DNA from: Pseudogemmobacter humi
GTDB lineage: Bacteria > Pseudomonadota > Alphaproteobacteria > Rhodobacterales > Rhodobacteraceae
Length of the DNA: 64,000 bases
NCBI RefSeq assembly: GCF_900609055.1
Contig: NZ_UXAW01000034.1
Coordinates: 62,001 to 126,000, forward strand
Direction: 5' to 3'
Made by a program: the position numbers and the translations under genes
Shown here: piece after piece, positions 12,097 to 63,384 of the stretch
How positions within the stretch are numbered: position 1 is the stretch's first letter
How the letters are laid out: each line of letters starts with the position of its first letter
The notes under the pieces: generated by a model
The model's database searches: none
Seen by the model: the letters and a program-made list of their open reading frames with translations, nothing else
Told to the model about the DNA's origin: nothing

Positions 12097-12144
12097 GGGC
12101 TGCGCCTTTACTCGCGCCCGGGCATCGCCTATCTCCTGCGGGTC

Positions 12145-12621: not shown

Positions 12622-12770
12622 AGATCTGGTGGCTGCGGCCTGAGCGAATACAACATTTGCCAGGATGGGAAGGATAGGGCACCATTCCCCCTGCCCGGAT
12701 CATTTCTTTCGACCCATGATGCCGGGTGTAAAGCCGGATGAAAAACGGCAGTCACAGAGGGACGAATGAC

Positions 12771-47905: not shown

Positions 47906-49519
47906 TCAGGCGCTGTGCACCGGCTGGCCTTTGAAGAGCGTCAGCAGGACTTTGGTGTCCGAGATCTTTGTGGTCGGGCAGGCGAAGATGTCCTGGTCCA
48001 GCAGGATCAGATCGGCCGAGAAACCGGGTGAGAGTCTGCCGGTGAAGGTTTCGCGCCAGCAGGCGCGGGCGGCCTGGGCCGTGTAGCCCTCGACGCATTC
48101 GGCGACGGTCAGCGCTTCGTCTGGCAGGAAGGGCGGGCCGGGGGTCTCGGCCTGCCGCGCCTGGCGGGTGATGGCGGTCTCGATGATCTCGAACGGGTTC
48201 AGGGTCGAGACCGGCCAGTCCGATGACAGGCAGAATCCTGCGCCCTGATCCAGCATCCGGCGGAAGGCGTAGGTGAGGAGCAGCCGCTCCGGCCCGATCA
48301 TGTCGAGCGCGATGTCGGGGATCTTGGGATCGTAACGCGCCCAGAGCGGCTGGATATTCGCCATTCCGAGCGCAGCGAGGTGCGCGAAATCCCCGGGCGC
48401 CGTCAGTTGCAGATGGGCGAGCTGATGCGCCGCGGGCCAGGCGCCGTTCGCGGCCCGCGCGGCCTCCAGCCCGTCGAGCACGCGGGTAAGCGCCGCATCG
48501 CCGATCACATGGGCATGGATCTGGAACCGCGCCGCGTCCAGCGCCGTCATCAGCGCGACCGTCTGGTCCTGGCTGAACATGCAGGGCGCGTTGCCGCCCT
48601 GTGCGTCGGCATAGGGCGCGTGGCAGGCGGCGGTCCGGTTCTCGAACACGCCATCCATGAAGAATTTCGCCGATTGCACATGGAAATCCGGCCCCGGATG
48701 GGCGGCGCGCAGCGCGGTCAGCCTGGCGAGCGCGGTCTCGGGCGTGTCCTGCGGTGCGATCCGCGCCGCGCCGGTCACGCGCAGGGTAAGGTCGCCGCGT
48801 GCGACGGCCATGGCGTAGATCCGCGCCTCAAGATCGGTGATGCAGGGATCGAGCACGCCGGTGATCCCATGCGCATTGGCATGGGCCTGGCCCGCGCGCA
48901 GCCCTTGCAGGTGATGGGCATCGCTGAGGTGCGGCAGGCGTGAGAGCGCCATCGGGATCGCCTCTTCATGCAGCATCCCGGTGGGCCGGCCCGATGGGTA
49001 ACGGACGATATGGCCGTTCGGGGGATCAGACGTTCCGGGGCCGATCCCGGCCATAGTCAGCGCGGCGGTGTTCAGGCAGGCGTTGTGAAAGCTGGAATCG
49101 TAAAGCACCGCCGGGCGGCCGCCGGTCGCGGGGTCGATCGCCTCGGCGGTCAGATCGGCGTCGGTGAAGATCCCCGGCTGCCAGCCCGCGCCGAGGATCA
49201 GGGGCAGGTCGGGCGTCCGCGTGGCGTGGGCCGCCACCCGCGAAAGCAGATCGGCGAGGTTCACGGCTTCATACAGCGGCGCGGCGGTGGCCAGATCGGT
49301 GCCGCCGGACAAGAGATGGATATGCGCGTCCTGGAAGCCGGGCAGCACCAGGGCGCCATGGGCGTCGATCCGTTTCGCGCCTTTGGGGGCCAGCGCGGCG
49401 ATCTCTTCGGTGGTGCCGAGCGCGGCGATGCGGCCGTCCCGGATCAGCAGCGCCCCGGCCCTGGGGCGGACCGGGTCCATGGTGCGGATCCGGGCATTGG
49501 TGAGGATTGTGGCGCTCAT
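47906..49519 (-). CDS. YtcJ-like amidohydrolase (amidohydrolase 3 family)
   Basis: This 537-residue metal-dependent hydrolase is the last gene of the twelve-gene operon. It has TILTNARIRTMDP at the N-terminus, the metal site GFQDAHIHLLSGG, the FMDGVFENRTAA segment, the HAHVIGDAALTRVLDG motif and a C-terminal FSADLILLDQDIF, all typical of YtcJ/NfdA-like enzymes. Family members cleave amide or C-N bonds of small molecules, and the substrate here is unknown. Its ATG overlaps the cupin stop as ATGA, so it is translated with the operon and is probably part of the pathway. Confidence 0.87.
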   Translation of the reverse strand: MSATILTNARIRTMDPVRPRAGALLIRDGRIAALGTTEEIAALAPKGAKRIDAHGALVLPGFQDAHIHLLSGGTDLATAAPLYEAVNLADLLSRVAAHATRTPDLPLILGAGWQPGIFTDADLTAEAIDPATGGRPAVLYDSSFHNACLNTAALTMAGIGPGTSDPPNGHIVRYPSGRPTGMLHEEAIPMALSRLPHLSDAHHLQGLRAGQAHANAHGITGVLDPCITDLEARIYAMAVARGDLTLRVTGAARIAPQDTPETALARLTALRAAHPGPDFHVQSAKFFMDGVFENRTAACHAPYADAQGGNAPCMFSQDQTVALMTALDAARFQIHAHVIGDAALTRVLDGLEAARAANGAWPAAHQLAHLQLTAPGDFAHLAALGMANIQPLWARYDPKIPDIALDMIGPERLLLTYAFRRMLDQGAGFCLSSDWPVSTLNPFEIIETAITRQARQAETPGPPFLPDEALTVAECVEGYTAQAARACWRETFTGRLSPGFSADLILLDQDIFACPTTKISDTKVLLTLFKGQPVHSA

Positions 49520-50370
49520 GGCGTGGGCTCGTGGGTGGGCCAGTCGTCGGCGGGCAGGACGTAAGCCTGGGCGCGGGTGTCGCGGGTCCAGGCGTAGAGC
49601 GCGAGGAAGGGCTGGGCCCCGGTCAGCGTGGCATGGGGGCGGTGCGGCGGGTTCCAGACCGGCGCGAGGGCGGGTTTCTCGCGAAAACCGGCGCCGGGGG
49701 TGAAGCGCCAGCGATGCGGGCCGGTCAGCGGCAGGTAAAGCTCGGGCGCGGCATGGGCATGGTCGCGGTAGAGCGTGTGCGGCGCGATCAGGAACAGGCC
49801 GAGGTCGAAATCCCGCGCTGTGAAGGGTGCGCTCTCGCCTGCGAGGCTGGCAAAGGCATGGGACTGCGGGAAATGCGGGCCGATCCCGGGGCCGTAGCCG
49901 TAGCTTTCCCATGTCAGATGCGGGGCGGCGAGGGCGATGGCCTCGGCCAGCGTGGGGTTCTCCCCGGCCAGCGCGGCGAGGGCCGGGGGCAGCAGCGCGG
50001 CGGCCACCGGGTGCTCCGGTCCCGGCCGGGGCTGCGGGGCCTGCCGGGTGAGCGCGGCGAAGCCGCTGCGGGTCTCGGCGATGCCGGGACTGGCGAGCGT
50101 GGCGAGGCAGCGGTCGATCTCATCGGCGAGCAGCGTCAGCGCGAGGGCTGGCGAGGGCGGTGGGGCCTCGGGGACCGCCAGGCCGCGGTCGGTCAGCACC
50201 TGCGCGGGGTCCTGGTCGTCGAAGGCCGAGGCTTCGCGGTAGGCTTCCAACTGCTGCCGGGACAACCGGCCCTGGGCGTGCAGTTCCATCGCGGCGCCGT
50301 AGCGGGCGCGGGCGCTGCCGGGGGGGCCGGCCGGGCGGGTCAATTGGTGCCAGAGCCGCGCCCCGCTCAT
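49516..50370 (-). CDS. Cupin protein of the DMSP-lyase superfamily
   Basis: This 284-residue protein has an N-terminal helical part (about residues 1-185) and a C-terminal cupin barrel. The metal-binding motif H-x-H-x3-E-x-Y is exact (His 204, His 206, Glu 210, Tyr 212 in RDHAHAAPELYLPLTG), with a later His (243 or 246 in WNPPHRPHATL). This spacing matches the cupin DMSP lyases DddK, DddW and DddQ as I remember them. The protein is longer than those enzymes and sits in an amine-type operon, so it may act on another betaine or propionate-like compound. It is linked by ATGA overlaps to potC-like and amidohydrolase genes. Confidence 0.75.
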   Translation of the reverse strand: MSGARLWHQLTRPAGPPGSARARYGAAMELHAQGRLSRQQLEAYREASAFDDQDPAQVLTDRGLAVPEAPPPSPALALTLLADEIDRCLATLASPGIAETRSGFAALTRQAPQPRPGPEHPVAAALLPPALAALAGENPTLAEAIALAAPHLTWESYGYGPGIGPHFPQSHAFASLAGESAPFTARDFDLGLFLIAPHTLYRDHAHAAPELYLPLTGPHRWRFTPGAGFREKPALAPVWNPPHRPHATLTGAQPFLALYAWTRDTRAQAYVLPADDWPTHEPTP

Positions 50371-51206
50371 CCGCCGGCCCTGTAGGCGAGGCGTTCCTCG
50401 GCGAGGCGGCGGCGCTCGGCCCGGCTCATCAGCCAGCCCGCCAGCGCGACGCAGAGACCGACGGTCACGACGATCAGCGTCGCCAGCGCGTTGATGTCGG
50501 GGGTGACGCCCAGCTTGACCTTGGACCAGATCAAAAGCGGCAAAGTGGTCGCGCCCGGCCCGGTGGTGAAAGAGGTGATTACCACATCGTCGAGCGAGAT
50601 GGTGAAGGCGAGAAGCCAGCCCGAGACCAAAGCGGGCGAGATCACCGGCAGGGTCACGTCCTTCAGCACCTGCCAGGGGCGCGAGCCGAGATCCATCGCC
50701 GCCTCTTCGATGGAGCGGTCCATCTGGCTCATGCGGGCGTGAACCACGGTGGTGACGAACACCATGGAAAATGTGATATGCGCCAGCGTGATCGTGGTGA
50801 AACCGCGTTGCCCGGGCCAGCCGGTGATCTGCGCCAGCATGATGAAGAACATCAGCAGCGATATGCCGGTGATCACCTCGGGCATGATCAGGGGTGCGGT
50901 CACCATGCCGGAGAATATCGTCCGGCCGCGGAACTTGCGGAACCGCGCCAGCGCGATCCCGGCCATGGCGCCGAGGATGGTGGCCATGGTGGCCGAGATC
51001 AGCGCGATCTGCACCGACAAGAGCAGCGCGGCGCCGACCTGGCGGTTCGAGAACAGTGAGGCATACCAGCGGGTCGAGAACCCGCCCCAGACCGTGGCCA
51101 GTCTGCTGTCGTTGAAGGAATAGACCATCATCGACAGGATCGGGATGTAGAAGAACGCAAAGCCGAAACAGAGCACGGTGATCAGAAAGACCGGGCGGCG
51201 GGTCAT
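50367..51206 (-). CDS. ABC importer permease, PotC/PotI type
   Basis: This 279-residue inner-membrane permease has six hydrophobic segments. The EAA loop is EEAAMDLGSRPWQVLKDVTLP, recognised by EEAAMDLGSRPW, and the family segments SLDDVVITSFTTGPGATTLP (in part) and LIMPEVITGISLL are present. It pairs with the PotB-type permease upstream, with which it overlaps by four bases. It should take up polyamines or other cationic amines together with the binding protein and ATPase of this operon. Confidence 0.9.
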   Translation of the reverse strand: MTRRPVFLITVLCFGFAFFYIPILSMMVYSFNDSRLATVWGGFSTRWYASLFSNRQVGAALLLSVQIALISATMATILGAMAGIALARFRKFRGRTIFSGMVTAPLIMPEVITGISLLMFFIMLAQITGWPGQRGFTTITLAHITFSMVFVTTVVHARMSQMDRSIEEAAMDLGSRPWQVLKDVTLPVISPALVSGWLLAFTISLDDVVITSFTTGPGATTLPLLIWSKVKLGVTPDINALATLIVVTVGLCVALAGWLMSRAERRRLAEERLAYRAGG

Positions 51207-52129
51207 GGTTTTTCCTCCCCCGATCCGGCGCCTTCGGCCTTTTGCTGATAGCGCGAGTAGATCATCGTTGGCCCGACCATCAGCACGAGGAGCGCGACCG
51301 CGACGGTCGAGGCCATCGGCCAGTCGCGGGCCTGGGCGAATTCGTCCGAGATGATGCGGCCGATCATCGGCGAGGACGGATTGCCGACGAGGACCGGGAT
51401 CACCAGCTCGCCCGCCGCCGGGATGAAGACCAGCATCCCGCCGGCGATGATGCCGGGCAGGGATTGCGGCAGGGTCACGTCGAGAAACACCCGCCAGGGG
51501 CGCGAGCCCAGATCCATCGCCGCCTCGTCGAGCTGCGGGTCGAGCCGTTCGAGGCTGGCGTAGAGCGGCAGGATCATGAACGGCAGGTAAGTGTAGACCG
51601 TGACGAGGATCACCGCGAAATTACTGTTCATCATCGGCACGCTGGTGATGGCCCAGTCGGAGGGCACCAGCCAGTTCCAGCTGTCGGTCAGCATCCGGTT
51701 GAACCAGGAATTGCGCCCCATCAGCCCCATCCAGGCGTAGACCCGCAGAAGGAACGAGGTCCAGAACGGCAGGATCACCAGCATCAAAAGGATATTTCGC
51801 CAGCTTTTCGACACCCGGGTCAGGCCGAGCGCCATCGGATAGCCGAGGAGCAGGCAGAAGATGGTGGCGATCGAGGCGTTCATCAGCGAGGTGACGAAGG
51901 CGCGGATATAGAGCGTGTCGGTGAAGAGCCGCGCATAGCCCCGGAAATTCAGCACCGGATTTTCGCCGCCGTAGCCGAAGGGCGGCGCGGTCGGGGTGCG
52001 GGTGGCGAGGCTCATCGCGACCACGATCAGGAAGGGAATCAGGAACAGCAGGATCAGCCAGGCGTAGGGCGTGGCGATGATCAGATCGCGCCAGCCGCGG
52101 CGGTGGAACCAGCGGGCGAGGGTGCTCAT
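51203..52129 (-). CDS. ABC importer permease, PotB/PotH type
   Basis: This 308-residue permease has a short cytoplasmic N-terminus and six membrane segments. Its EAA loop is DEAAMDLGSRPWRVFLDVTLP (core DEAAMDLGSRPW). The LPFWTSFLLRVYAWMGLMG and FIPAAGELVIPVLVG segments are typical of PotB/PotH. I chose the ATG at 52129 (MSTLARWFHRRG). The gap to the upstream ATPase gene, 117 bases, is the largest in the operon and holds a repeat family A copy with two hairpins. Confidence 0.9.
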   Translation of the reverse strand: MSTLARWFHRRGWRDLIIATPYAWLILLFLIPFLIVVAMSLATRTPTAPPFGYGGENPVLNFRGYARLFTDTLYIRAFVTSLMNASIATIFCLLLGYPMALGLTRVSKSWRNILLMLVILPFWTSFLLRVYAWMGLMGRNSWFNRMLTDSWNWLVPSDWAITSVPMMNSNFAVILVTVYTYLPFMILPLYASLERLDPQLDEAAMDLGSRPWRVFLDVTLPQSLPGIIAGGMLVFIPAAGELVIPVLVGNPSSPMIGRIISDEFAQARDWPMASTVAVALLVLMVGPTMIYSRYQQKAEGAGSGEEKP

Positions 52130-52155
52130 GGCGCGCCCCGCTGGCTGGCCGGGGA

Positions 52156-52225
52156 GCGGGGGGCCGTCTGCCCCCCGCGGCGCCATTCGGCGCCTCCCCC
52201 CGAGGGTATTTGGATCAAGGTGAAG
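52156..52225 (+). repeat. Intergenic repeat family A, copy 8 (two hairpins plus core)
   Basis: GCGGGGGG-CCGTCTG-CCCCCCGC (52156-52178) and GGCGCC-ATTC-GGCGCC (52179-52194) are followed by the core CGAGGGTATTTGGATCAAGG plus TGAAG (52201-52225). It lies inside the - strand operon between the ATPase and permease genes. It is the only copy in which the hairpin-to-core order runs against transcription. It could tune expression of the downstream half of the operon. Confidence 0.72.
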
Positions 52226-52246
52226 AGGGGGGCGGGGCGCATGGCG

Positions 52247-53350
52247 TCAGTCCGTCAGGATGATGGCCGAGGCGGGCTCGAACGAGAGCCAGACCTTGTC
52301 GTCCCAGTCGGCAGGGCGGGCGGTGTCGGGGCCGCGGCGCGCGTTGACGGCGTGGACCGCGATGAGATCGCCGCCGGGCAAAGTGACGCGGTAGAGGCTG
52401 TCCTTGCCGAAATAGGCGAGGTCTTTGACCTGGCCCTCGACCACGTTCACCGCATCGGGGCAGGTTTTCGCGATGGCTACCTTTTCGGGGCGCAGCGCGA
52501 CGGTGATCTCTTGGCCCTCGGTCAGGCCCGGGGTGGCGCGGGCGGCGAAGGTACCGTCCATCGCCGGGATGTCGACCTCGGCGAGGTCTCCGGTCAGGCG
52601 GATGACGCGGGCCGGGAAGGTCGAGATCGCGCCGATGAAACCGGCAACGAAGCGCGAGGCGGGGTATTCGTAGATCTCGGTCGGGGTGCCCACCTGGCGG
52701 ACCTCGCCCCGGTCCATCACCGCGATGCGGTCGGAGAGGGTCATCGCCTCTTCCTGGTCGTGGGTGACGACGATGAAGGTGACGCCGGTGCGGGCCTGGA
52801 TCGACATCAGCTCGAACTGGGTGTGTTCGCGCAGTTTCTTGTCGAGCGCGGCGAGCGGCTCGTCGAGCAGCAGGAGTTTCGGCTGCCGCGCCAGGGCGCG
52901 CGCGAGCGCCACCCGCTGGCGCTGCCCGCCCGAGATCTGATGCGGCTTGCGTTTCGCGAAAGGCGTGAGCTGCACCAGATCGAGCATTTCGGCCACCCGG
53001 GCGGCGCGGTCGGCGGCGCTGATCCGTTCATGCTTCAGCCCGTAGGCGATGTTCTTCTCGACGCTCATATGCGGGAAGATCGCGTAAGACTGGAACATCA
53101 TATGCACCGGCCGCTCCCAGGGCGGGATGCCGGACATGTCCTGGCCGTCGATGAAGATCCGCCCGGCGGTGGGGTCCTCGAACCCGGCGAGCATCCGCAG
53201 AAGCGTGGTCTTGCCGCAGCCCGAGCCGCCCAGAAGCGAGAAGATCTCGCCCCGGGCCACGGTCAGGTTCACGTCTTTCACCGCCTGGAAGCTGCCGAAG
53301 CTCTTGGCCACGTTCTCGATGCGGATGAAGGGTTCCGCCTCACCGGACAT
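52247..53350 (-). CDS. ABC importer ATPase, PotA/PotG type
   Basis: This 367-residue ATPase energises the importer. Walker A is LLGGSGCGKTTLLR, the signature is QISGGQRQRVALARALA, Walker B is LLLLDEPLAALD, and the H-loop is VVTHDQEEAM. A C-terminal TOBE-type domain (about 270-367) is present, as in PotA. The start at 53350 lies five bases after the binding-protein stop. The high similarity of order (binding protein, ATPase, two permeases) to potFGHI supports the family. Confidence 0.92.
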   Translation of the reverse strand: MSGEAEPFIRIENVAKSFGSFQAVKDVNLTVARGEIFSLLGGSGCGKTTLLRMLAGFEDPTAGRIFIDGQDMSGIPPWERPVHMMFQSYAIFPHMSVEKNIAYGLKHERISAADRAARVAEMLDLVQLTPFAKRKPHQISGGQRQRVALARALARQPKLLLLDEPLAALDKKLREHTQFELMSIQARTGVTFIVVTHDQEEAMTLSDRIAVMDRGEVRQVGTPTEIYEYPASRFVAGFIGAISTFPARVIRLTGDLAEVDIPAMDGTFAARATPGLTEGQEITVALRPEKVAIAKTCPDAVNVVEGQVKDLAYFGKDSLYRVTLPGGDLIAVHAVNARRGPDTARPADWDDKVWLSFEPASAIILTD

Positions 53351-53355
53351 GACGC

Positions 53356-54462
53356 TCAGCCGCCGGTCTTGATGGTCTGCCAGATCCGGTTCAGGTCGCT
53401 CTCCTGCTGATCGGTCTGGGGTGCGGGGGTGTAGAGGCGCGCGAGGATTTCCTCGTCGGGGTAGACCGCCGGGTCCGAGGCGATATCGGGATCGACAAGC
53501 GGTGTCGCCGCGGCATTGGCATTCGCGTAGCCGGTGTAATCGGTGCAGGCGGCGATGACTTCGGGGCGCAGAAGGTAGTCGATGAAGCGGTAGGCGTTCT
53601 CGGTGTTCGGCGCATCCGAGGGGATCGACCACAGGTCGAACCAGGCCGGGGCGCCGGTTTTCGGCACGTAATAGGCGAGGTTCAGATCCAGCCCGGCCTC
53701 GGCCGCGCGCGACTTCGCCACGCTGTAATCGCCCGACCAGGTGTTGGCGACGCAGATCTCGCCGTTGGGCAAGGTGTTGAGATAGTTGGAATTGTCGAAG
53801 GTCGCCACATATTGCCGGATCGGCGCGAAAGCCTCGGCCATCTTCGCATATTCCGCGGCGCCGGCGGTGTCGGGGTCGATGCCCAGCCATTTCAGCACCG
53901 TCCAGCCGATGTCGGTCGGGCTGTCGAGCAGCGAGATCCCGCAATCGGCCAGTTTCGCGGCGTTTTCCGGGGTGAAGATCGTCGCCAGATCCTCTAGATC
54001 GGCATCGGGCAGGCGTTCGCGCACCAGGTCCAGGTTGAAGGTGAAACCGACCGAGCCCCACATATAGGGCACGCCATGGGTGTTGCCGGGATCGAAGCCC
54101 CCGACGATCTTCAGGATATCGGGGTCGAGATTCGACCAGCCGGTGAGTTTTGCCTTGTCGATCGGCTGGAAGACCCCGGCCTTGACGAATTGCGGCATCG
54201 AGAGGCCCGATTGCAGCACCACATCGTATCCGGTGCCGCCGACCAGCATCCGGGCCTGGGCCTCTTCGGAACTGGCGTAAAGGTCGTAGACGACGCTGAT
54301 CCCGGTTTCGGATTCGAAATCGGCGATGGTGGTTTCGCCGATGTAATCCGCCCAGTTGTAGACATTGACCGATCCTCCCTGGGCCCGGGCGGGGCGGATG
54401 TAGGGGGCCGAAAGCGCGGCACCGGAGAGGGCGGCGAGCGTGTGGCGGCGGGTCAGCTTCAT
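53356..54462 (-). CDS. Periplasmic polyamine-type binding protein, PotF-like
   Basis: This 368-residue protein has a twin-arginine-like signal (KLTRRHTLAALSG, cleaved near ARA). It aligns closely with E. coli PotF as I remember it: YNWADYIGETTIADFE, GVPYMWGSVGF and GYANANAAATPLV. Residues that match the putrescine pocket of PotF are Trp 37, Asp 39, Tyr 40, Ser 85, Trp 242, Asp 245, Asp 276 and Tyr 312. PotF Ser 38 is Ala, and the Glu near 185 is Asp 184. A cationic diamine or N-methylated amine is the likely ligand. A GGGAG site precedes the ATG. Confidence 0.9.
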   Translation of the reverse strand: MKLTRRHTLAALSGAALSAPYIRPARAQGGSVNVYNWADYIGETTIADFESETGISVVYDLYASSEEAQARMLVGGTGYDVVLQSGLSMPQFVKAGVFQPIDKAKLTGWSNLDPDILKIVGGFDPGNTHGVPYMWGSVGFTFNLDLVRERLPDADLEDLATIFTPENAAKLADCGISLLDSPTDIGWTVLKWLGIDPDTAGAAEYAKMAEAFAPIRQYVATFDNSNYLNTLPNGEICVANTWSGDYSVAKSRAAEAGLDLNLAYYVPKTGAPAWFDLWSIPSDAPNTENAYRFIDYLLRPEVIAACTDYTGYANANAAATPLVDPDIASDPAVYPDEEILARLYTPAPQTDQQESDLNRIWQTIKTGG

Positions 54463-54505
54463 GTCGGTCTCCCTGTCAGGTTTTTCGATGTGTTTTGGAT
54501 TAAGC

Positions 54506-55723
54506 CTAGGCCTGCCCGGTCCTTGCGCAAAGCAATTCGTCGTTGAGGGCGGGGATCTGACTTTCGGGCGGCGCGTGGTCCTCGCGCATCACCGGAAGCA
54601 GGTCGCGCAACTGGTCGTGGTGGCGGCGCAGCCCGTATTCCAGATCCGAGAGGTGGAACCCCTCGAAATGGTCCGAGCGCATCGATTCGTTCGACCAGAT
54701 CGACAGTTGCTGATCCTCGGCCGAGGTGTCGCGGTCGATCCTTTGCGCAAGGTAGCGGGCGGCGCGGGTCTGGCGGTCCTCGTTCGCGAGGCGGTAGAGC
54801 CGCCCGGTCAGCCGGGTCTGGCCGGGGGAGACCGGCAGGTCGTGGTAGAACTGCGCGCTTTCGGGGGTGAAGGCGATCACCGTGTTCGGAAACAGGCCGT
54901 AATAGGCCCAGGTGCGTTGCAGATGCGGCGGCAGGCCCTCGCGCACAGGCGAGTGTCTGACGTAGTTCCTGACCGACCAGCGCCGCCCGGGCCGGTCGCC
55001 GTAGAAGCCGTAGCTGACATGCAGGCCGCCGGGCAGATAGAGGTCGCGGTAATCGCGGCCGTAAAGATCCTGGAGCGAGGGATGGGCCAGCGCCACATGA
55101 TAGCCCTCGTTGTCCACATCGCGCACCGATTTCCAGTTGACCGGCAGGTCCGCCGACCAGCCCGCGACATCGACCGGCAGCAGGTTCCCGCTTTGCCAGG
55201 CCTGGAAATCGGCGGCATAGGGCGCCAGCATCTCCGCGACCGAAGGCTGCGGGCCGCGGCGGAAGCGCAGGAACAGAAAGCCGCCGAAGATCTCCAGCTC
55301 CAGCGGTTTCAGCCCGAAGGCGGCTTTGTCCACGCCCTCGCCGAAGGTCTCGGGGCGCGAGACGCCGCGCAGACTGCCATCGAGATTGTAGACCCAGCCA
55401 TGGAACGGACAGACCAGAGCGCCGCGGCATTTGCCCTGCGCGCCTTCCACCACCCGCGCGCCCCGGTGGCGGCAGAGGTTCATGAAAGCGCGGATTTCGC
55501 CGTCCTGGCCGCGGAGGATCACGGCGCGCTCGTCCAGGAGATCGAAGGCCAGCCAGTCGCCGGGGGCGGGAATGTCCGAGACATGGCCCGCCACCTGCCA
55601 GTGATTGAGGAACAGGTGTTCACGTTCCAGATCGAACAGGGCCGGCGAGTGGTAGGTCCAGGCCGGAAGACCGCGGCGGTCCCATTGCCGCGGGATCGGT
55701 TCCGATGTCAGGGGCAGGGTCAT
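54506..55723 (-). CDS. Rieske non-haem iron oxygenase alpha subunit (A)
   Basis: This 405-residue oxygenase has an N-terminal Rieske domain (Cys 84, His 86, Cys 105, His 108 in NLCRHRG and VCPFHGW). The catalytic domain carries mononuclear iron ligands in DNEGYHVALAHP (His 208, His 213). The bridging residue is Glu 205, not the Asp of aromatic dioxygenases. From memory, Glu occurs at this site in carnitine monooxygenase and related N-demethylating enzymes. No reductase or beta subunit is adjacent. The start is fixed by an ATGA overlap with the other Rieske gene and a GGAGGG site. Confidence 0.9.
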   Translation of the reverse strand: MTLPLTSEPIPRQWDRRGLPAWTYHSPALFDLEREHLFLNHWQVAGHVSDIPAPGDWLAFDLLDERAVILRGQDGEIRAFMNLCRHRGARVVEGAQGKCRGALVCPFHGWVYNLDGSLRGVSRPETFGEGVDKAAFGLKPLELEIFGGFLFLRFRRGPQPSVAEMLAPYAADFQAWQSGNLLPVDVAGWSADLPVNWKSVRDVDNEGYHVALAHPSLQDLYGRDYRDLYLPGGLHVSYGFYGDRPGRRWSVRNYVRHSPVREGLPPHLQRTWAYYGLFPNTVIAFTPESAQFYHDLPVSPGQTRLTGRLYRLANEDRQTRAARYLAQRIDRDTSAEDQQLSIWSNESMRSDHFEGFHLSDLEYGLRRHHDQLRDLLPVMREDHAPPESQIPALNDELLCARTGQA

Positions 55724-56850
55724 GGCGATCCCTCCATCTCGGTCAGCAGCCATTGGTGAAAGCGGTGGATCTCGTATTCCTCGGGCATCAGCCGCCCGCG
55801 CCGGAAAGCGGGCGATGCGATGCCGCGCTGGTTCATCTCAGACGCCGCGCCGTCCTGCTCCATCACCAGTTTCGCGAAAGCGGCGACGGTGGCGGGGTCG
55901 AAGCCGGGTTGGGCCAGGGTCTCTGCGGGGAAATACCATTCCGCCAGCAGCCGGGTGTGTGTGGGGGAGAGCGGCTCCAGCCGCACGGCGCGGATATGGT
56001 CGGCATGGGCGACCACGTAGCCCGAGGGCCAGAAGGTCACGAACGTATAGCCGCGCGCGCGTTCCTCAGCCGTCAGCCCCGGGAAGGCCGGCCCGCAGAG
56101 CGCGCCCGAGGGGGTCCAGCTTTCCGCGCCCTCGCGCAGGTTCGGGCGCGCGGGCTGATCGGGCGCCCAGTCCCGGGCCTCGTTCGCACCCATGATGCCC
56201 TGGCCGTAGAGGGGCACCATCTCGCAGAGCTCCGGGTGGATGCCGGGGCAATGCAGGCATTCCGAGTAGTTTTCCCAGAAAACCTTCCAGTTGCAGGCGA
56301 TTTCGGTTTGCCAGCGGTGGCCGGTGAGCAGCCCCGCCGCCGGCCAGTTGTCGAGGCTGGCGAGCGGCACATCGGGCGTGAGCGGGCCGGGGGCGGCGGC
56401 CAGGTTGACGAGGATGAAGCCGTTCCAGACCTGATGCGCGACGGGCTGCAACCCGTGGTTCTCTTTGCGGAAATCGTCGGTCGGATGAGCATGGCCGGTC
56501 GAGACCAGCCGCCCGTCGGCGGCGGCGAAGGCCCAGGCGTGATAGGGGCAGGTGATCAGGCGCCCGAGTTTGCGGTCCTCGCCCTCGCGGCAGAGTTCTG
56601 ATCCGCGATGGCGGCAGGTGTTATGGAACGCTGCCATCCCGCCGCCAGCTTCCCGTGCCAGCAGCACCGGTGCCTCTCCGATGCGGATCGCCCGCATCGT
56701 GCCGGGAGGCAGATCGGCGAGCCGCCCCGCCATCACCCAGTTCCGCGCGAAAACCGTCTGCATCTCGCGCACGAACCAGTCGGGCGAGAGATAGGCCTCG
56801 CGCGGCAGGGTCTCGGGGCAATGGGTCAGGCGAGGGCTGCCCTTGTACAT
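55720..56850 (-). CDS. Rieske non-haem iron oxygenase alpha subunit (B)
   Basis: This 376-residue oxygenase has a Rieske cluster site (Cys 79, His 81, Cys 101, His 104 in NTCRHRG and TCPYHAW). Iron ligands lie in ENYSECLHCPGIHP (His 200, His 205), and the bridging residue is Glu 197. It is clearly a paralogue of the neighbouring Rieske gene but diverged in length and sequence. The pair could form two steps or a mixed complex. The start at 56850 has GGGGAGG upstream and overlaps the GcvT-like stop by one base (TGATG). Confidence 0.9.
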   Translation of the reverse strand: MYKGSPRLTHCPETLPREAYLSPDWFVREMQTVFARNWVMAGRLADLPPGTMRAIRIGEAPVLLAREAGGGMAAFHNTCRHRGSELCREGEDRKLGRLITCPYHAWAFAAADGRLVSTGHAHPTDDFRKENHGLQPVAHQVWNGFILVNLAAAPGPLTPDVPLASLDNWPAAGLLTGHRWQTEIACNWKVFWENYSECLHCPGIHPELCEMVPLYGQGIMGANEARDWAPDQPARPNLREGAESWTPSGALCGPAFPGLTAEERARGYTFVTFWPSGYVVAHADHIRAVRLEPLSPTHTRLLAEWYFPAETLAQPGFDPATVAAFAKLVMEQDGAASEMNQRGIASPAFRRGRLMPEEYEIHRFHQWLLTEMEGSP

Positions 56851-58037
56851 CAGAACCTCCCCGGCGGGGTGGCGCGGCGGCGGTCGGGTGCGAAGAACGG
56901 CCGTTCGGTTTTCGTGACCGGCAGCATCAGCTTGTGATATTGCAACTCGCGCAGAGCGTAGATCTCGACCCACAGGTCGCGGCAATCGGCGTATTTCGCC
57001 GCGACATGGGCGATGGCTATGTTGCGTTTCAGTGTGGGTGACCAGCAGGCTGCGGTGACGAATCCGGCCTCGCGCCGCTTGCCATGGTAGAGGATCGAGC
57101 CCTCGGCGCTGACATTGCCGGGAATGTCGAGCCCGACCAGCGCCCAACGGGAGGTCTTGCCCTCACGCTCGGCCATCAGCGCGCGCCGCCCGGTGAACGG
57201 CCCCTTGTCCCAGGCGATCATCCAGCCGAGGCCGAGTTCCAGCGGCGAGCGGGTGCGGTCCTCGCGCAGGGCCTGTTGGGCGGGGATGAAGTCGAGGTTC
57301 GTGGTCAGAAACCCGGCTTCGGTGCGCGCCAGCATCACCGCATCGGTGCCGGTCGGGACCAGCCCGAGCGGTGCGCCATGGGCCATCAGGTGGTCCCACA
57401 GGACCAGCGCGTCTTCCGGCGTTGTCCAAAGCTCGTAGCCCAGATCGCCGGTGAAGCCGGTGCGCGAGATCGTCACCTCGCCCGCGCTGAGCGGAAAGGT
57501 GGCCAGCCGGAACGGCTTCAGCGCGCTGACATCGAATCCGGCGGCGGCCAGCACCGTGGCCGAGACCGGCCCTTGCAGCGCGAGCCCGGCGATCCGGTCG
57601 GTCTCGTCCCCGATGGTCACATCGAAGCCCCAGGCGGAGTCGAGCAGCCACGGCAGGTGGCGCTCCTGGCAGCAGAGGCGGAAGTCGTCGGCCCCCAGCC
57701 GGAACAGGGTGCCGTCGTCCATCACCTGGCCCGCATCGTCGGTCCAGGCGGTGTAATGCACCGCGCCCACCGGCAGACGGGCGGCGTCGCGCAGGGTCAG
57801 CCGGTTCAGATAATCCGCCGCCTCCGGGCCCCGGATGCGGTATTTGATCATCGGCGAGATGTCGTAAAGCGTGGCCGTGTTGCGGATGCCGGTATGTTCC
57901 ATCGCGCTGTCGCCATAGCATGAGGGCGTCATATAACCCGCCCAGGCCCCCCAGTTTTGCAGCCGGTTCAGGGGAGCGGTGCGCGGATGGAACGGCGTTT
58001 CGCGCAGGGGCTTCTCGTAGTGACGCTGCGGGATCAT
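56850..58037 (-). CDS. GcvT-like aminomethyltransferase family protein
   Basis: This 395-residue protein has the folate-binding GcvT fold. Recognisable parts are TATLYDISPMIKYRIRGP, the DDAGQVMDDGTLFRL segment (with the family acidic pair) and VTISRTGFTGDLGYELW. The family moves one-carbon units or methyl groups to tetrahydrofolate and includes the glycine-cleavage T protein, dimethylglycine-type enzymes and DMSP demethylase. Here it probably handles the carbon released by the Rieske enzymes. I used the ATG at 58037, behind a GGAGG site and overlapping the upstream FAD gene as ATGA. Confidence 0.87.
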   Translation of the reverse strand: MIPQRHYEKPLRETPFHPRTAPLNRLQNWGAWAGYMTPSCYGDSAMEHTGIRNTATLYDISPMIKYRIRGPEAADYLNRLTLRDAARLPVGAVHYTAWTDDAGQVMDDGTLFRLGADDFRLCCQERHLPWLLDSAWGFDVTIGDETDRIAGLALQGPVSATVLAAAGFDVSALKPFRLATFPLSAGEVTISRTGFTGDLGYELWTTPEDALVLWDHLMAHGAPLGLVPTGTDAVMLARTEAGFLTTNLDFIPAQQALREDRTRSPLELGLGWMIAWDKGPFTGRRALMAEREGKTSRWALVGLDIPGNVSAEGSILYHGKRREAGFVTAACWSPTLKRNIAIAHVAAKYADCRDLWVEIYALRELQYHKLMLPVTKTERPFFAPDRRRATPPGRF

Positions 58038-59563
58038 TGCCTCGCCTCCAGGACTGCCCCGGCGGTGTTCCAGCCCGCCGCGCCCGACATGCCGCCCGGA
58101 TGGGTGCCCGCGCCGGTCAGCCACAGGCCGCGGATCGGTGTGGCGTAGCGCGAAAGCTGCGGGATCGGGCGCAGGAACAGCATCTGCTCGACCGTCAGTT
58201 CACCGTGATGCCAGTTGCCGCCCGCCATGCCGAACTGCCGTTCTATATCGTAAGGCATCAGAAGGTCTGCCCTGACGATCATGCGACGGATCCCCGGCGC
58301 GGCGGCTTCCAGCCGGGCGAGGCTGGCCTCCAGCATCGCCGCCCGGGCCTCGTCCCGGCCGATCTTCGGGTCATGCGGCGCGAACTGGACGGTGGCGGAA
58401 AGCACATGGCCGCCTTCGGGCGCATGGCCCGGATCAAAAGCCGAGGGCAGCAGGATCTCCATCACCGGGCGTTCCGGCACCTCACCGTATTTCACCGGGT
58501 TGAAGGCGCTTTCCACCTCGTGCTCGTCGCCGGCGAGGATCATTCGCGCGTGCAGGTCGGTGCCGAAATCCGGCGCGGCGGACAGCGCCAGATGCAGCTT
58601 CGCCGCACCGCCGCGCGATTTCTGGTGCCTCAGCCGCGTGACCAGCCCGGCGTCCAGCGCGCGCGGGCCGACCAGATCGAGGAGCGTCGATTTGGGTCCG
58701 ATCGCCGAGATCACCAGATCCGCCCGCAATTCCCCGCCATCCGCCAGCGTGACGCCGCTGACCCGTTCGCCATCGGTCACGATCCGCGCCACCCGCGCGC
58801 CCTGCCGCAGGGTGACGCCCGCGGCTTCCGCCGCACGGGCCATGGCGGCAGCCAAAGCGGGCATCCCGCCTTTGGGCATCCCAAGGCTCGCGCGCTGGCC
58901 GCCGATCTGCCCGGCCAGCCGGTCGAGCCACAATATCAACGTATTAGGCGAGCGCGGCCCGGCCCAGGCCCCGAGCGTGGCGTCGAAACACAAAGCCGCG
59001 CGCAGGCGGGGATCGGTCAACTCGTCCTGCGCCACGTCATGGGCGTTGATCAGCAGCACCCGCAGCAACTCGCGGAAATCATGGGTGCCGAGGGCGCGGA
59101 GCTTCAGGAGGTTCTTCGCCAGTTGCCCCCAGGAATTGTCTTTGGCAAGGCGCGGGGGTGTCATGCGGCGGAACGGCTCCAGAGCCCCGGCGAAGCACAG
59201 CATCCTCTGGTAAAGCGTGGCCCAGGCCCCGGCATCCGGCCCCTCGGCCAGCCCGCCCCGGATGGTCAGCGGGCCATCGGGCGACAGCACCGTGGTGGGA
59301 ATGCCCTGCGCGGCCCATTCCAGCCCGTGACGGGAAAGGTCCATCGCCGCCTCGGCCCGGGGATCAAACTGCCAGATCAGATGCGCAAGCGCGGGCGAGC
59401 GGTAGCCCGGCGCCAGATCGGGCAGCGCCCGCGCCCCGCCGCCGGGGGCGGCTTCGGCCTCCAGCAGCGTGACCCGCCGGCCCTTCTGCGCCAGCCGGGT
59501 CGCGCAGGCCAGACCGTTCGGCCCGGCCCCGATGACGATGATGTCAGAGAACCGCCCAGGCAT
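58034..59563 (-). CDS. CrtI/PYROXD2-like FAD-dependent oxidoreductase (B)
   Basis: This 509-residue flavoprotein has an N-terminal FAD fold (DIIVIGAGPNGLACATRLAQ) and the C-terminal motif LWLTGAGTHPGGMSGAAGWN of the phytoene-desaturase-like family. Carotenoid genes are absent nearby, so carotenoid synthesis is unlikely. Oxidation of an amine or a cyclic imine is more consistent with the operon. It overlaps the preceding paralogue by 20 bases and the GcvT-like gene by four. Confidence 0.85.
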   Translation of the reverse strand: MPGRFSDIIVIGAGPNGLACATRLAQKGRRVTLLEAEAAPGGGARALPDLAPGYRSPALAHLIWQFDPRAEAAMDLSRHGLEWAAQGIPTTVLSPDGPLTIRGGLAEGPDAGAWATLYQRMLCFAGALEPFRRMTPPRLAKDNSWGQLAKNLLKLRALGTHDFRELLRVLLINAHDVAQDELTDPRLRAALCFDATLGAWAGPRSPNTLILWLDRLAGQIGGQRASLGMPKGGMPALAAAMARAAEAAGVTLRQGARVARIVTDGERVSGVTLADGGELRADLVISAIGPKSTLLDLVGPRALDAGLVTRLRHQKSRGGAAKLHLALSAAPDFGTDLHARMILAGDEHEVESAFNPVKYGEVPERPVMEILLPSAFDPGHAPEGGHVLSATVQFAPHDPKIGRDEARAAMLEASLARLEAAAPGIRRMIVRADLLMPYDIERQFGMAGGNWHHGELTVEQMLFLRPIPQLSRYATPIRGLWLTGAGTHPGGMSGAAGWNTAGAVLEARQ

Positions 59564-61160
59564 CGCTCATATCCCTGACAGAAAGTTTGGCGTCGCGCAG
59601 AATCTCGGCCGCAGCATTGCGCCCCGGCGCGCCCATCACCCCGCCGCCCGGATGGGTCGAGGAGCCGCAGATCCACAGATCGCGAACGGGAGTCCGGTAA
59701 TTGGCGTAGCCCGGCACCGGGCGGTTGAAGAGAAGCTGGTCGAAGGTCAGCTCGCCCTGGAAGATGTTGCCCTCGGTCAGCCCCACCTCGGCCTCCAGCT
59801 CGCGGGGCGTGCGCACCTCGACATGCAGCACAAGGTTTTTGAAGCCGGGCGCGTAACGCTCGATCTGGTCGAGACAGGTCTGGCCGAACGCGTCGCGGTC
59901 GGCATCCGTCCAGTCACGGCCTTCGATCTTCGGCGGCGCATATTGCACGAAGCAGGACATGAAATGCTTGCCCGGCGGGGTCATGGTCGGGTCGATCATC
60001 GTGGGGATCATCACGTCCTGGAACGGATCGCGGCTGAAATGGCCCGCCTTCCAGTCGTCATAGGCGCGCTCCATCTTCTCGATGGAATCGGTGAAATGCA
60101 GATCGCCTTTCAGCGCGGTGGAACCCTCGGGCAGCGCCGGGAACTTCGGCACCCCGTCCAGCGCGATATTGAGCTTGCCCGACGAGCCGCGGGTTTTGAA
60201 CTTCCTGACCGAGGCGATGTAATCGCCCGGCAGATCGGCCTCATCGACATGGCGCAGCATGGTGCGCTTCACGTCCATGTTGGAAATCACCCGCTTCGCG
60301 CGGATCTCGTCGCCGCCTTCCAGCACGACGCCGGTGGTGCGCCCGCCTTTCACCAGCACCTTCTCCACCGCCGCCCCGGTGCGGATTTCGCCCCCCGATG
60401 AGCGCAGCGAAGAGGCCAGCGCCCGGGTGATCGCCCCCATCCCGCCGCGCGCGAACCCCCAGGCGCCGATGTTGCCGTCCACATCGCCCATGTAGTGATG
60501 CAGCAGCACATAGGCCGAGCCGGGCGACATCGGCCCGAGCGCGGTGCCGATGATGGCCGAAACCGCGAGATAGGCCTTGATCACCGGGTTCTCGAAATAA
60601 TGGTCGAGGTAGTCCGAGATGCTCATGGTCCAGAACCGCACCATCCCGGCGATCTGGGCCTCGGACAGGGCCGAGACCTGTTTGCCGATCCATAAAAGCT
60701 CACCCATGTCGCGCGGGCGGAAGCGCGCCGGGTCGGGTGGGGTGCGCAGAAGCAGCGGCCGGATGAAACGGCAATGACGCAGCACGTCGCGCGAGTAGAT
60801 GTCGTAGGCCTCGGCGTCGCGGGGCGAATGGCGGGCGAATTCGCGGCGGTTCGCATCATGATCGCGGAACATGCCGAGATAGCCGCCGCCCTCCTGCAAC
60901 ACCGCGCCGCCCTCATAGGGCAGGATCTGGAGCCCGTGGCGCGGCAATTCCAGGTCGCGCATGATCTCGGGGCGGAACAGCGAGGCGACATAGGAACAGT
61001 TGGAATAGGTGAAGCCGGGCGTCAGCTCGCGCGAGACCGCCGCGCCGCCGATCCAGTCGTTCTTCTCGACCACCAGCACCTTCATTCCGGCGCGGGCGAG
61101 GTAGCAGGCGGTGACCAGCCCGTTATGCCCGGCGCCAAGGATCACCGCATCGTAAGTCAT
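59544..61160 (-). CDS. CrtI/PYROXD2-like FAD-dependent oxidoreductase (A)
   Basis: This 538-residue flavoprotein has the FAD fold YDAVILGAGHNGLVTACYLA and the C-terminal motif LWICGSSTHPGGGVMGAPGRN. A middle segment, LLHHYMGDVDGNIGAWGFARGG (recognised by GDVDGNIGAWGFARGG), is typical of the PYROXD2-like branch. It is a paralogue of the next gene. The start at 61160 follows GGAGGGG, and an ATG 13 codons upstream gives an unlikely N-terminus. It lies 61 bases after the aminotransferase stop. Confidence 0.86.
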   Translation of the reverse strand: MTYDAVILGAGHNGLVTACYLARAGMKVLVVEKNDWIGGAAVSRELTPGFTYSNCSYVASLFRPEIMRDLELPRHGLQILPYEGGAVLQEGGGYLGMFRDHDANRREFARHSPRDAEAYDIYSRDVLRHCRFIRPLLLRTPPDPARFRPRDMGELLWIGKQVSALSEAQIAGMVRFWTMSISDYLDHYFENPVIKAYLAVSAIIGTALGPMSPGSAYVLLHHYMGDVDGNIGAWGFARGGMGAITRALASSLRSSGGEIRTGAAVEKVLVKGGRTTGVVLEGGDEIRAKRVISNMDVKRTMLRHVDEADLPGDYIASVRKFKTRGSSGKLNIALDGVPKFPALPEGSTALKGDLHFTDSIEKMERAYDDWKAGHFSRDPFQDVMIPTMIDPTMTPPGKHFMSCFVQYAPPKIEGRDWTDADRDAFGQTCLDQIERYAPGFKNLVLHVEVRTPRELEAEVGLTEGNIFQGELTFDQLLFNRPVPGYANYRTPVRDLWICGSSTHPGGGVMGAPGRNAAAEILRDAKLSVRDMSDAWAVL

Positions 61161-61221
61161 CCCCTCCGCCCCCCGGGCGCCGCAGCGAAGAGCGGGCAAG
61201 GCCCGGCGATGAGCGGCCCGG

Positions 61222-62580
61222 TCATTCCGCCGCGTCCAGTCTGCCCTCGGTCTGATCCCGCAGCGTCAGCTCCACCGCCGCTTCCACCGCTTTCAGCGTA
61301 TCGGTCAGGCAGCTGTCATCAAGGCCATGCGCCTCGCACATGAACCAGGGCTCGCGCGAGTCGGGCTCGACGATGATGCCGAGGTCATGCAGATAATACG
61401 CCATCCGGTCGTAGAAGGTGTAATCCGAGGTCTTCCAGGCCCGGTAATTGTCCGGCGGCGCCTCGGCAAAGAACAGGCCGAACATCGAGGGATGGCCCGA
61501 GAAGCTGTGGGTGATCCCCCGCGCGCTCAGGATCTGCGACACCCCAGCTTTCAGCCGCTCGCCGTAACCCGCCAGCGTTTCCAGCGCCGGGGTTTCATCA
61601 AGGATGCGCAGACATTCCTCGGCGGCCGCGAGGCTGACCGAATGGGCGGTATAGGTGCCGCCATGGCTGGCGCCGCCGTAGCGGAAGCTGCGCATCACAT
61701 CCTCGCGCCCGGCCACCAGCGAGATCGGATAGCCGTTGGCCACCGCCTTGGCGAAAGTGGTGATGTCTGGCCGCACCCCGAGGATGCCCTGGATGCCGCC
61801 CTTGCCCACACGGAAGCCGGTCTTTACCTCGTCGATGATCAGCAGGACGCCATACTGGTCGCAAAGCTGCCGCGCCAGTTGCACATAATCGCGGCTGGCC
61901 GAGATCGCGCAGCAATTGCCCTGGATCGGCTCGATCAGCATGGCGGCCATGGTCTCGCCGTGGCGGCGGAAGGTATCCTCCAGCCGCTGCATGTCGTTCA
62001 TCGGCACCAGATGGGCGAGGTGCTTCACCGTTTCCGGGATGCCCTTGCCATAGGGCACCACCTCGGGGTCGCGGTTCGATTTCGCGTCCCATTCGTCCAT
62101 GTTCGCCATCCACATCGCGGCGTCGAACAGCCCGTGATAGCCGCCCTCGACCAGCAGATAGCTCTCGCGCCCGGTATAGGCGCGGGCGAGGCGCAAAGCG
62201 GCCATCACCGCCTCGGTGCCGGAATTCGAGAAGCGCACCAGTTCCGCCGCCGGAACCATCTTCGCCACCCGCTCGGCGACGATCAGTTCGCGCTCGGTCG
62301 AAAGAGCAAAGACGCCGCCCACCTCCATCCCCCTGCGCGCGGCGGCGTCCACCCTCTCGTCGGCATAGCCGAGAATCGCCGGCCCGTAGCCCAGCCGGTA
62401 ATCGACGTAAGAATTGCCGTCGATGTCCCAGGTCCGCCCGCCCTTGCCGTGGTGGGCATAGATCGTCCGCTCGTCGCCCCAGTAGCGGAAGGTCGAGGCC
62501 ACCCCGAGCGGCAGCCGCTTCACCGCGCGCTGAAACTGGGCGTTGGATTTGTCGAGCCGGCGCTGAGGGGCGGAAATCAT
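61222..62580 (-). CDS. Class III aminotransferase (glutamate-1-semialdehyde aminomutase-like)
   Basis: This 452-residue PLP enzyme has LVRFSNSGTEAVMAALRLAR, the IIDEVKTGFR motif and the PLP Lys in ITTFAKAVANGYP (Lys 278). It resembles the HemL-like branch of class III aminotransferases, but the operon setting argues for a catabolic transaminase or mutase rather than haem synthesis. It is the first gene of the twelve-gene operon. The leader holds the palindrome shared with the divergent TetR gene. Confidence 0.9.
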   Translation of the reverse strand: MISAPQRRLDKSNAQFQRAVKRLPLGVASTFRYWGDERTIYAHHGKGGRTWDIDGNSYVDYRLGYGPAILGYADERVDAAARRGMEVGGVFALSTERELIVAERVAKMVPAAELVRFSNSGTEAVMAALRLARAYTGRESYLLVEGGYHGLFDAAMWMANMDEWDAKSNRDPEVVPYGKGIPETVKHLAHLVPMNDMQRLEDTFRRHGETMAAMLIEPIQGNCCAISASRDYVQLARQLCDQYGVLLIIDEVKTGFRVGKGGIQGILGVRPDITTFAKAVANGYPISLVAGREDVMRSFRYGGASHGGTYTAHSVSLAAAEECLRILDETPALETLAGYGERLKAGVSQILSARGITHSFSGHPSMFGLFFAEAPPDNYRAWKTSDYTFYDRMAYYLHDLGIIVEPDSREPWFMCEAHGLDDSCLTDTLKAVEAAVELTLRDQTEGRLDAAE

Positions 62581-62655: not shown

Positions 62656-62721
62656 GTGATGTGAAGGGTTTCGCGCCGCCGGATTTCCGCTATGGATTGC
62701 AGGCCCGGAACGGAGGTGCCC

Positions 62722-63384
62722 ATGGCCGCTGTCCTTGAGAACGCAAACCCCGAACCCGCGCCGCGCAAGATGCCGCGCGACGCGCGGCGGGTGCAGCTGA
62801 TCGAGGCGACGATCGAGACGATCGCCCGCTTCGGCTATTCCCGCACCACCATGTCAGAGGTGGCGCGGATGGCGGGGCTGTCGCACGGGCTGGTGAATTT
62901 CCACTTCTCGACCAAAGAGAATCTTCTGTCCGAGACGCTGCTCTACCTGGCCGAGGAATACCGGCAGAACTGGCTTCAGGCGGTCGAGGCGGCGGGGCCG
63001 GGGGTGGCCGAACAGCTTTATGCGATGCTGGCGGCTGATTTCCGGCCCGAGATGTGCACTCATGCGCGGCTTTCGGCCTGGTGCGCCTTCTGGGGCGAGG
63101 CATCGGGCCGGCCGCTTTATCAGGAGAAATGCGGCTCGAACGACGAGGAATACAATCGCAGGCTGGAAGAATACTGCACTGCGATGAATGCGGCCCATGG
63201 CTACGCTGTCGATCCGGCGCGCACCGCCCGGGTGATGCGGGTCACGACCGAAGGGGTCTGGCTCGACATGATGACGATGCAGGCGCCCTATGACGCGAAG
63301 GAGGCGCTGGCCACGCTGATGACCTGCGTCGCCGCCTTCTTCCCGCGGCATTTCGACGAGAACGGGCTGATCAGCGCGGCGTGA
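62722..63384 (+). CDS. TetR/AcrR-family regulator (BetI-like)
   Basis: This 220-residue repressor has an N-terminal helix-turn-helix (TMSEVARMAGLSHGLVNFHF) followed by STKENLL. Its ligand domain recalls BetI (WCAFWGEASGRPLYQE). BetI controls choline/betaine genes, which would fit a betaine or amine signal here. I chose the ATG at 62722 behind GGAGGTG; an ATG ten codons upstream lacks such a site. It is divergent from the operon and probably represses it and itself. Its last 14 bases overlap pyrF. Confidence 0.9.
   Translation: MAAVLENANPEPAPRKMPRDARRVQLIEATIETIARFGYSRTTMSEVARMAGLSHGLVNFHFSTKENLLSETLLYLAEEYRQNWLQAVEAAGPGVAEQLYAMLAADFRPEMCTHARLSAWCAFWGEASGRPLYQEKCGSNDEEYNRRLEEYCTAMNAAHGYAVDPARTARVMRVTTEGVWLDMMTMQAPYDAKEALATLMTCVAAFFPRHFDENGLISAA

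Follow-up and report, generated by a model that had tools for sequence, protein, structure and literature searches.

Within the 64,000-nucleotide stretch of the Pseudogemmobacter humi genome analyzed here (the window; contig NZ_UXAW01000034.1), twelve collinear open reading frames (ORFs), all on the minus strand (47906-62580), form a real, conserved and out-of-the-ordinary operon, the component enzymes of which are of known kinds. With a probability of about 0.5, it appears to be a catabolic operon under TetR control, serving the uptake and stepwise oxidative breakdown of a di- or polyamine with N-methyl groups, the methylated nitrogen being probably quaternary or tertiary. Its genes encode an aminotransferase (AT), two flavoproteins (FAD1 and FAD2), a GcvT-like folate protein (GcvT), two Rieske oxygenases (R1 and R2), a Pot-like importer, a cupin and an amidohydrolase (AH3). 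From the cluster, its conservation, an operator-like site, the domain families and the active-site residues, all read from sequence, we infer the reactions, the order of the steps and the substrate.

A PotFGHI-type importer would bind the cationic amine, and R1 and R2 would oxidize it either at the methylated nitrogen or at an adjacent position, R1 acting at a quaternary center and R2 at a related cationic center. The N-methylamine that remains would be dehydrogenated by the FAD1-FAD2 pair, and GcvT would trap the methylene unit of the resulting iminium on tetrahydrofolate, such that formaldehyde would not be released. AT would convert the freed primary amine to an aldehyde, the cupin would carry out a beta-elimination on an aminopropionyl-type product in the manner of a dimethylsulfoniopropionate (DMSP) lyase, and AH3 would be an optional hydrolase. 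This route is favored because PotF positions are kept in the binding protein, group V residues in R1 and six DddQ residues in the cupin, because GcvT resembles trimethylamine N-oxide (TMAO) demethylase (Tdm), and because of the context of one related locus (L162; locus labels are ours), PurU neighbors, a conserved gene order and a shared operator-like site. The preliminary description of this DNA had already proposed import followed by oxidative N-demethylation with folate, an idea that probably holds, and N-methylated polyamines, one of several candidates in it, are now the favored substrates.

The arrangement recurs in other genera. A family sample of 295 genomes (Rhodobacteraceae; Paracoccaceae at NCBI), one per genus, was searched, with the best few candidates per genome scored, and an orthologue of GcvT was found in 29, the window's own included. 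Up to 20 kb was fetched around this gene in each of the other 28. Twelve of these loci (GcvT 62-67% identical) have the window's architecture, herein called type A. TetR and the FAD1-FAD2-GcvT trio are present in all twelve, a Rieske gene and the PotF-like protein in 11 each, AT in nine (it is absent in three), AH3 in four, and the cupin at full length in seven and in part in one; two short type A contigs stop before the cupin, and both genomes have it on another small contig. AT, the cupin and AH3 are dispensable, each being absent from some type A relatives. The remaining 16 loci (type B; GcvT 45-53% identical) all contain the trio together with a different aminotransferase (PRK07036 type in the plasmid examples); 15 have TetR, 15 have a binding protein unlike that of the operon (22-28% identity), and seven have a Rieske gene inside the fetched stretch. 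Genomes with a GcvT orthologue hold 11 of the 12 cupin-positive, 10 of the 11 AT-positive and 13 of the 16 R2-positive family genomes (R2 at 66% identity or more; relaxing the threshold to E <= 1e-110 gives 22 of 39). The hypergeometric p values for co-occurrence with GcvT are 1e-11 for the cupin, 2e-10 for AT and 2e-12 for R2 (66% identity or more), or 1e-10, 2e-9 and 2e-11 without the window's genome. Since the gene order recurs across other genera, the twelve-gene arrangement is not a product of chance; the preliminary description had staked its proposal on such conservation, and the type A relatives bear it out.

A complete type A operon, with generic annotation only, lies on a plasmid of Fuscovulum ytuae, and type B-like sets lie on plasmids of Shinella, Rhizobium, Ensifer and Parasedimentitalea. 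A Rieske gene at one type B plasmid locus resembles GbcA, although its 303.7 bits fall under the cut-off of 670. On Parasedimentitalea marina pW43C (L069, 10692-28920), four Rieske genes and an OYE-type flavoprotein accompany a FAD1-FAD2-GcvT-aminotransferase set, and in L089 an OYE-type flavoprotein lies between two copies of the FAD1-FAD2 pair, which are approximately 10 kb from each other. Genes resembling glutamine synthetase and pipecolate oxidase near gammaproteobacterial and type B loci scored far below cut-off and were not used. Among the loci, L047 and L066, being of equal length, are apparently one plasmid, L057 and L102 are apparently one contig, and a single genome contains both L065 and L161.

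A shared site ties several of these loci together. The palindrome TGATTGACAGTTCAGTCAA in the TetR-AT gap is exact and is the sole match at up to two mismatches in the 4.47-Mb genome; as a control, the pattern read backwards likewise gave one genome match at up to two mismatches, the true site having none. Within the window, 0.19 matches are expected at up to three mismatches, and 17 of 100 shuffles gave at least one. A 15-base core occurs at no more than one mismatch in 11 of the 12 type A loci, upstream of AT, except that in L045 and L049, which lack AT, it is upstream of FAD1; in L048 the core has two mismatches, lies upstream of FAD1 and is counted by position only. Outside type A, TetR and the site (one mismatch) stand ahead of R1-R2-PotDABC-cupin in the reduced locus L157 and ahead of R2 and PotDABC only in two minimal operons (L158, 5542-11423; L159, 5295-11527), while in L160 TetR and a site with two mismatches, again counted by position only, precede AT alone. 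Matches with two mismatches are near background (the type B loci, 310,721 bases, gave five), and one elsewhere with a single mismatch, in L085, looks like chance; L161 and L162 gave no match at up to two mismatches. Because the same kind of TetR and the same site stand before the reduced operons, the operon appears to consist of modules assembled under one regulator, in a single modular regulon with TetR presumably acting at the palindrome.

The trio itself would be an oxidative N-demethylation module feeding methylene-tetrahydrofolate. FAD1 and FAD2 are 31% identical to each other (blastp). Their best NCBIfam models are CrtO/CrtI-like, but the scores lie far under the cut-offs (CrtO, 294.8 for FAD1 and 183.7 for FAD2 vs. 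1000; crtI_fam, 117.9 and 120.6 vs. 238.1), which places both outside these carotenoid-enzyme families. A structural model of FAD1 (pLDDT 83) has a carotenoid desaturase (4rep) as its nearest fold, with NicA2, putrescine oxidase and monoamine oxidase also among the nearest; it suggests a CrtI/amine-oxidase fold and leaves the choice of reaction to other evidence. Of the NCBIfam models, TMAO demethylase gave GcvT its best score (245.7 bits), ahead of the GcvT (197.6) and DMSP demethylase (93.5) models. The first match covers profile positions 385-761 of 763, i.e., the C-terminal half, and falls under the cut-off of 1100 for the full two-domain enzyme; against the glycine cleavage T equivalog, the protein reached 165.9 bits (cut-off 235.85). 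Its best PDB matches are 9q5a and 9q59, and it has MDD at residues 106-108. Folate-domain proteins are numerous in this genome, with 23 GCV_T matches (21 over the cut-off) in 4.47 Mb.

Two FAD genes and GcvT stand together in 101 of 113 loci (the family loci plus the matches listed from a profile scan of named genomes, which kept 80 of 580 reported relatives; a few are duplicates), a count biased upward since loci were picked by FAD1 or GcvT, just as neighbor counts are limited by contig ends. By title, trio-bearing records among the matches listed include gammaproteobacteria, Kiloniella, an uncultured alphaproteobacterium and Candidatus Pelagibacterales. In L096 (uncultured Alphaproteobacteria) and L098 (Candidatus Pelagibacterales), the trio is accompanied by genes for an aminotransferase and Pot-like proteins, and in L098 by a Rieske gene as well. 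A mixed group of 36 loci among the matches listed comes mostly from Acidobacteria, Gemmatimonadetes, Chloroflexi, Bacteroidota, Planctomycetes and Actinobacteria, and includes loci labeled Beta- and Deltaproteobacteria. The trio is present in 28 of them, eight with a Rieske gene and none with Pot permeases or either of the two aminotransferases; in this group the second flavoprotein usually scores higher against FAD1 than against FAD2, and GcvT is often on the opposite strand. In three loci from Acidobacteria, the FAD pair adjoins a gene for PurU, the formyl-tetrahydrofolate deformylase (L112, 400 bits vs. an NCBIfam cut-off of 286; L111 and L117, 74-83% identical), as expected if one-carbon folate is produced. 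One PurU was among ten neighbors from non-proteobacterial loci, as was an amino-acid permease (a second permease was seen separately); the others included unrelated genes for a sugar kinase, a glycoside hydrolase, a Na+/H+ antiporter and a class IV aminotransferase, and no hint of a substrate emerged. A FAD1 relative at E <= 1e-100 is present in 68 of the 385 genomes of a class-wide sample (the window's own genome among them); most of these relatives show 34-48% identity and are possibly paralogues.

More tentatively, and with the odds somewhat against so specific a scheme, the trio may be a three-protein folate-linked N-demethylase of many phyla, in which a heteromeric CrtI-fold pair passes methylene to a stand-alone GcvT, and which Proteobacteria have incorporated into a regulon for methylated polyamines, alongside two Rieske oxygenases and a cupin acting as a C-N lyase with the active site of a DMSP lyase. 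No description of the trio's function was found in the open-licence literature, and the named records seen give both flavoproteins as "NAD(P)/FAD-dependent oxidoreductase" and GcvT as "aminomethyltransferase family protein".

Both Rieske proteins keep the Rieske cluster ligands, the iron ligands and the bridging Glu in alignments. The quaternary-ammonium (group V) signature comprises Glu205, Cys206-x-x-Cys209 and an aromatic residue or Asn at 203 in CntA numbering (PMC7948474 and PMC10952381); Tyr or another aromatic residue at 203 marks group Va (CntA, choline and benzalkonium enzymes) and Asn the demethylating group Vb (PMC7948474). R1 carries this signature, with bridging Glu, Cys-x-x-Cys and the Rieske and 2-His-1-Asp ligands in place: Y195, E197, C198, H200 and C201 correspond to CntA Y203, E205, C206, H208 and C209, and the Tyr is present in six of six R1 proteins examined. 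The best overall matches of R1, 3n0q and 3vca (we take the latter to be Stc2), carry the Vb Asn at this position. R2 reads D-N-E-G-Y-H-V in six of six type A proteins examined; with Asp at 203 and no Cys pair, it lies outside the described signature, although the bridging Glu is kept.

Clues to the substrate come largely from the importer. PotF chains are the best PDB matches of the binding protein (7oyv, E 2e-96; 1a99, E 1e-94), and the alignment with PotF spans the whole mature protein. Among 16 sequences, W37, W242, D245 and Y312 are invariant and D39 and D276 nearly so, L082 alone deviating at the two Asp. These we take to be equivalents of the PotF diamine ligands (two Trp, three Asp and a Tyr), and they are kept in gammaproteobacterial binding proteins as well, a pattern that favors an amine cation over a carboxylate betaine. 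L162 joins R2 (57% identical) to Pot-like genes (41-55%) and a PRK07036-type omega-aminotransferase; the flavoprotein adjoining R2 there (11332-12651) has LSD2, spermine oxidase, acetylpolyamine oxidase and LSD1 as its best solved relatives, and this neighborhood points to polyamines or N-methylated alkylamines. A link to the long-chain N-methylated polyamines of diatoms was left as a guess, type B being found in rhizobia and the trio in soil phyla.

The cupin model (pLDDT 91) has DddQ as its nearest fold, at 21-24% identity to DddQ chains, and residues 1-150 of 284, approximately, form a long helical N-terminal part. Y201, H204, H206, E210, Y212 and H246, invariant in nine of nine sequences, align with six residues that are essential in DddQ (PMC4437653). 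Our hypothesis is that the enzyme releases an amine from an intermediate of aminopropionate type by beta-elimination. AT is 62-86% identical to its counterparts in relatives, gammaproteobacteria included, and scores below the GSA aminomutase equivalog (327 vs. 527.3) and subfamily (340.9 vs. 398) cut-offs.

Some observations weigh against the degradation of a methylated polyamine by this route. The nearest solved folds of FAD1 are carotenoid desaturases, ahead of amine oxidases, and Tyr203 in R1 is a Va mark rather than that of the demethylating clade, such that R1 may cleave a C-N bond instead. Type B shares the trio with a different binding protein and aminotransferase, and the trio is therefore not tied to one substrate. 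Pfam searches found no Rieske reductase among the twelve genes, and five PF00970 proteins are encoded elsewhere in the genome, two of them adjoining other Rieske genes. The "complete" route of the preliminary description must be given up, given that an aldehyde dehydrogenase is likewise missing from the twelve and three of the enzymes are dispensable. No characterized pathway with this gene set, and no homarine, trigonelline or betaine operon for comparison, was found in the open-licence literature.

Betaines, also named in the preliminary description, would enter the cell by a repurposed PotF-type importer if the substrate were zwitterionic (carnitine or gamma-butyrobetaine, trimethyllysine, stachydrine or a homarine-like compound), to be demethylated by Rieske and flavoprotein-folate enzymes. 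Such a substrate would suit the BetI-like regulator, the GbcA-like gene on the type B plasmid, and the group V Rieske enzymes of known function, which act on betaines, choline and benzalkonium (PMC7948474). We nonetheless consider it doubtful, as the binding protein keeps the acidic diamine positions of PotF, a spermine-oxidase/LSD1-clade enzyme adjoins R2 in L162, no betaine-specific gene was seen in type A, and nothing seen pointed to homarine or trigonelline.

Unmethylated polyamines or alkanolamines would account for the PotF-like site, for the group Va Tyr that R1 shares with CntA, and for the aminotransferase and polyamine-oxidase-like neighbors; the Rieske pair would then hydroxylate carbon and cleave the C-N bond, with GcvT detoxifying incidental one-carbon units. 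This is unlikely, since two conserved flavoproteins with a Tdm-like GcvT and PurU neighbors indicate a real one-carbon flux, and since the CntA pocket recognizes quaternary ammonium by a cation-pi contact (PMC7948474). A sulfonium pathway, with the cupin as DMSP lyase and GcvT as DMSP demethylase, is in keeping with the cupin's fold and its six DddQ-essential residues; it is very improbable, however, in view of the GcvT scores (93.5 bits for DMSP demethylase vs. 245.7 for TMAO demethylase) and of a cupin that is so distant from DddQ in sequence and absent from some relatives. It also counts against this pathway that, to our knowledge, no known DMSP route includes Rieske or Pot genes.

As the preliminary description had it, the genes form a single operon with a divergent TetR gene 111 bp from AT; its overlaps of 20, 4, 1, 4, 4, 4 and 4 bases were reproduced on recomputation, together with gaps of 61, 43, 5 and 117 (starts taken at 61160 for FAD1, 58037 for GcvT, 56850 for R1, 55723 for R2, 53350 for PotA, 52129 for PotB and 49519 for AH3), and its family calls agree with Pfam matches above cut-off for all twelve genes. 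By eye from the ORF list, the operon is flanked by a pyrF-like ORF (63371-63955) and a DEAD-box helicase-like ORF (45559-47826), and may be an insertion at a housekeeping site.

Features of the operon and its control region (positions in the window)
Feature	Position	Strand	Basis
TetR/BetI-like repressor gene	62692-63384	+	PF00440 and PF13977 (BetI-type C-terminal domain); BetI models under cut-off
Operator-like palindrome TGATTGACAGTTCAGTCAA	62626-62644	.	overlaps TTGACA (-35-like)
AT, class III (GSA-type) aminotransferase	61222-62580	-	PF00202 Aminotran_3; GntE/GSAM-like, all under cut-off
FAD1, CrtI/amine-oxidase-fold flavoprotein	59544-61160	-	PF01593
FAD2, diverged FAD1 paralogue	58034-59563	-	PF01266/PF01593
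GcvT-like folate protein	56850-58037	-	PF01571 (GCV_T), PF08669
R1, Rieske oxygenase, group V quaternary-amine type	55720-56850	-	PF00355, PF00848
R2, non-canonical Rieske oxygenase	54506-55723	-	Rieske/Ring_hydroxyl_A
PotF-like substrate-binding protein	53356-54462	-	SBP; PotF chains are best PDB matches
ABC ATPase (PotG/PotA-like)	52247-53350	-	PF00005, PF08402 TOBE_2
ABC permease (PotH/PotB-like)	51203-52129	-	PF00528
ABC permease (PotI/PotC-like)	50367-51206	-	PF00528
DMSP-lyase-like cupin, N-terminal helical extension	49516-50370	-	PF16867, 77 bits vs. cut-off 27
AH3, amidohydrolase family 3	47906-49519	-	PF07969, 263 bits

If the proposed route is correct, marine and soil bacteria would have an added way to recycle methylated nitrogen compounds, and a DMSP-lyase site would be at work in an amine pathway. 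A widespread, generically annotated three-gene module is named herein, along with a testable claim, namely that the flavin pair and the folate protein make up a demethylase.

Each part of the operon has a known counterpart from which it departs. Like the PotFGHI putrescine importer, its binding protein keeps the two Trp, three Asp and Tyr of the site, but other pocket positions differ, with Ala after W37 and Trp at a position that is Phe in wild-type PotF, and the operon adds oxidative enzymes. R1 shares the bridging Glu, Cys-X-X-Cys and aromatic 203 of group V Rieske oxygenases (CntA, GbcA/BmoA and Stc2), and both R1 and R2 their iron ligands; R2 departs from them by its Asp at 203 and its missing Cys pair, and the operon by its lack of a reductase gene. 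GcvT has the folate-binding domain of Tdm, its best NCBIfam and PDB match, but stands alone, matches the C-terminal half only and is accompanied by two flavoproteins. In dimethylglycine oxidase and dehydrogenase and in heterotetrameric sarcosine oxidase, a GcvT-like folate domain, matched in sequence by that of the operon, is tied to flavin N-methyl oxidation; the operon's flavoproteins differ in being two separate CrtI/amine-oxidase-type paralogues, unfused to the folate domain. The spermine oxidase/LSD1 clade, one member of which adjoins R2 and a Pot importer in L162, has none in the operon, where FAD1-FAD2-GcvT may fill the role. Lastly, the cupin shares its fold, metal ligands and both tyrosines with the DMSP lyases DddQ and DddW, from which its long helical N-terminal part, low identity and amine context set it apart.

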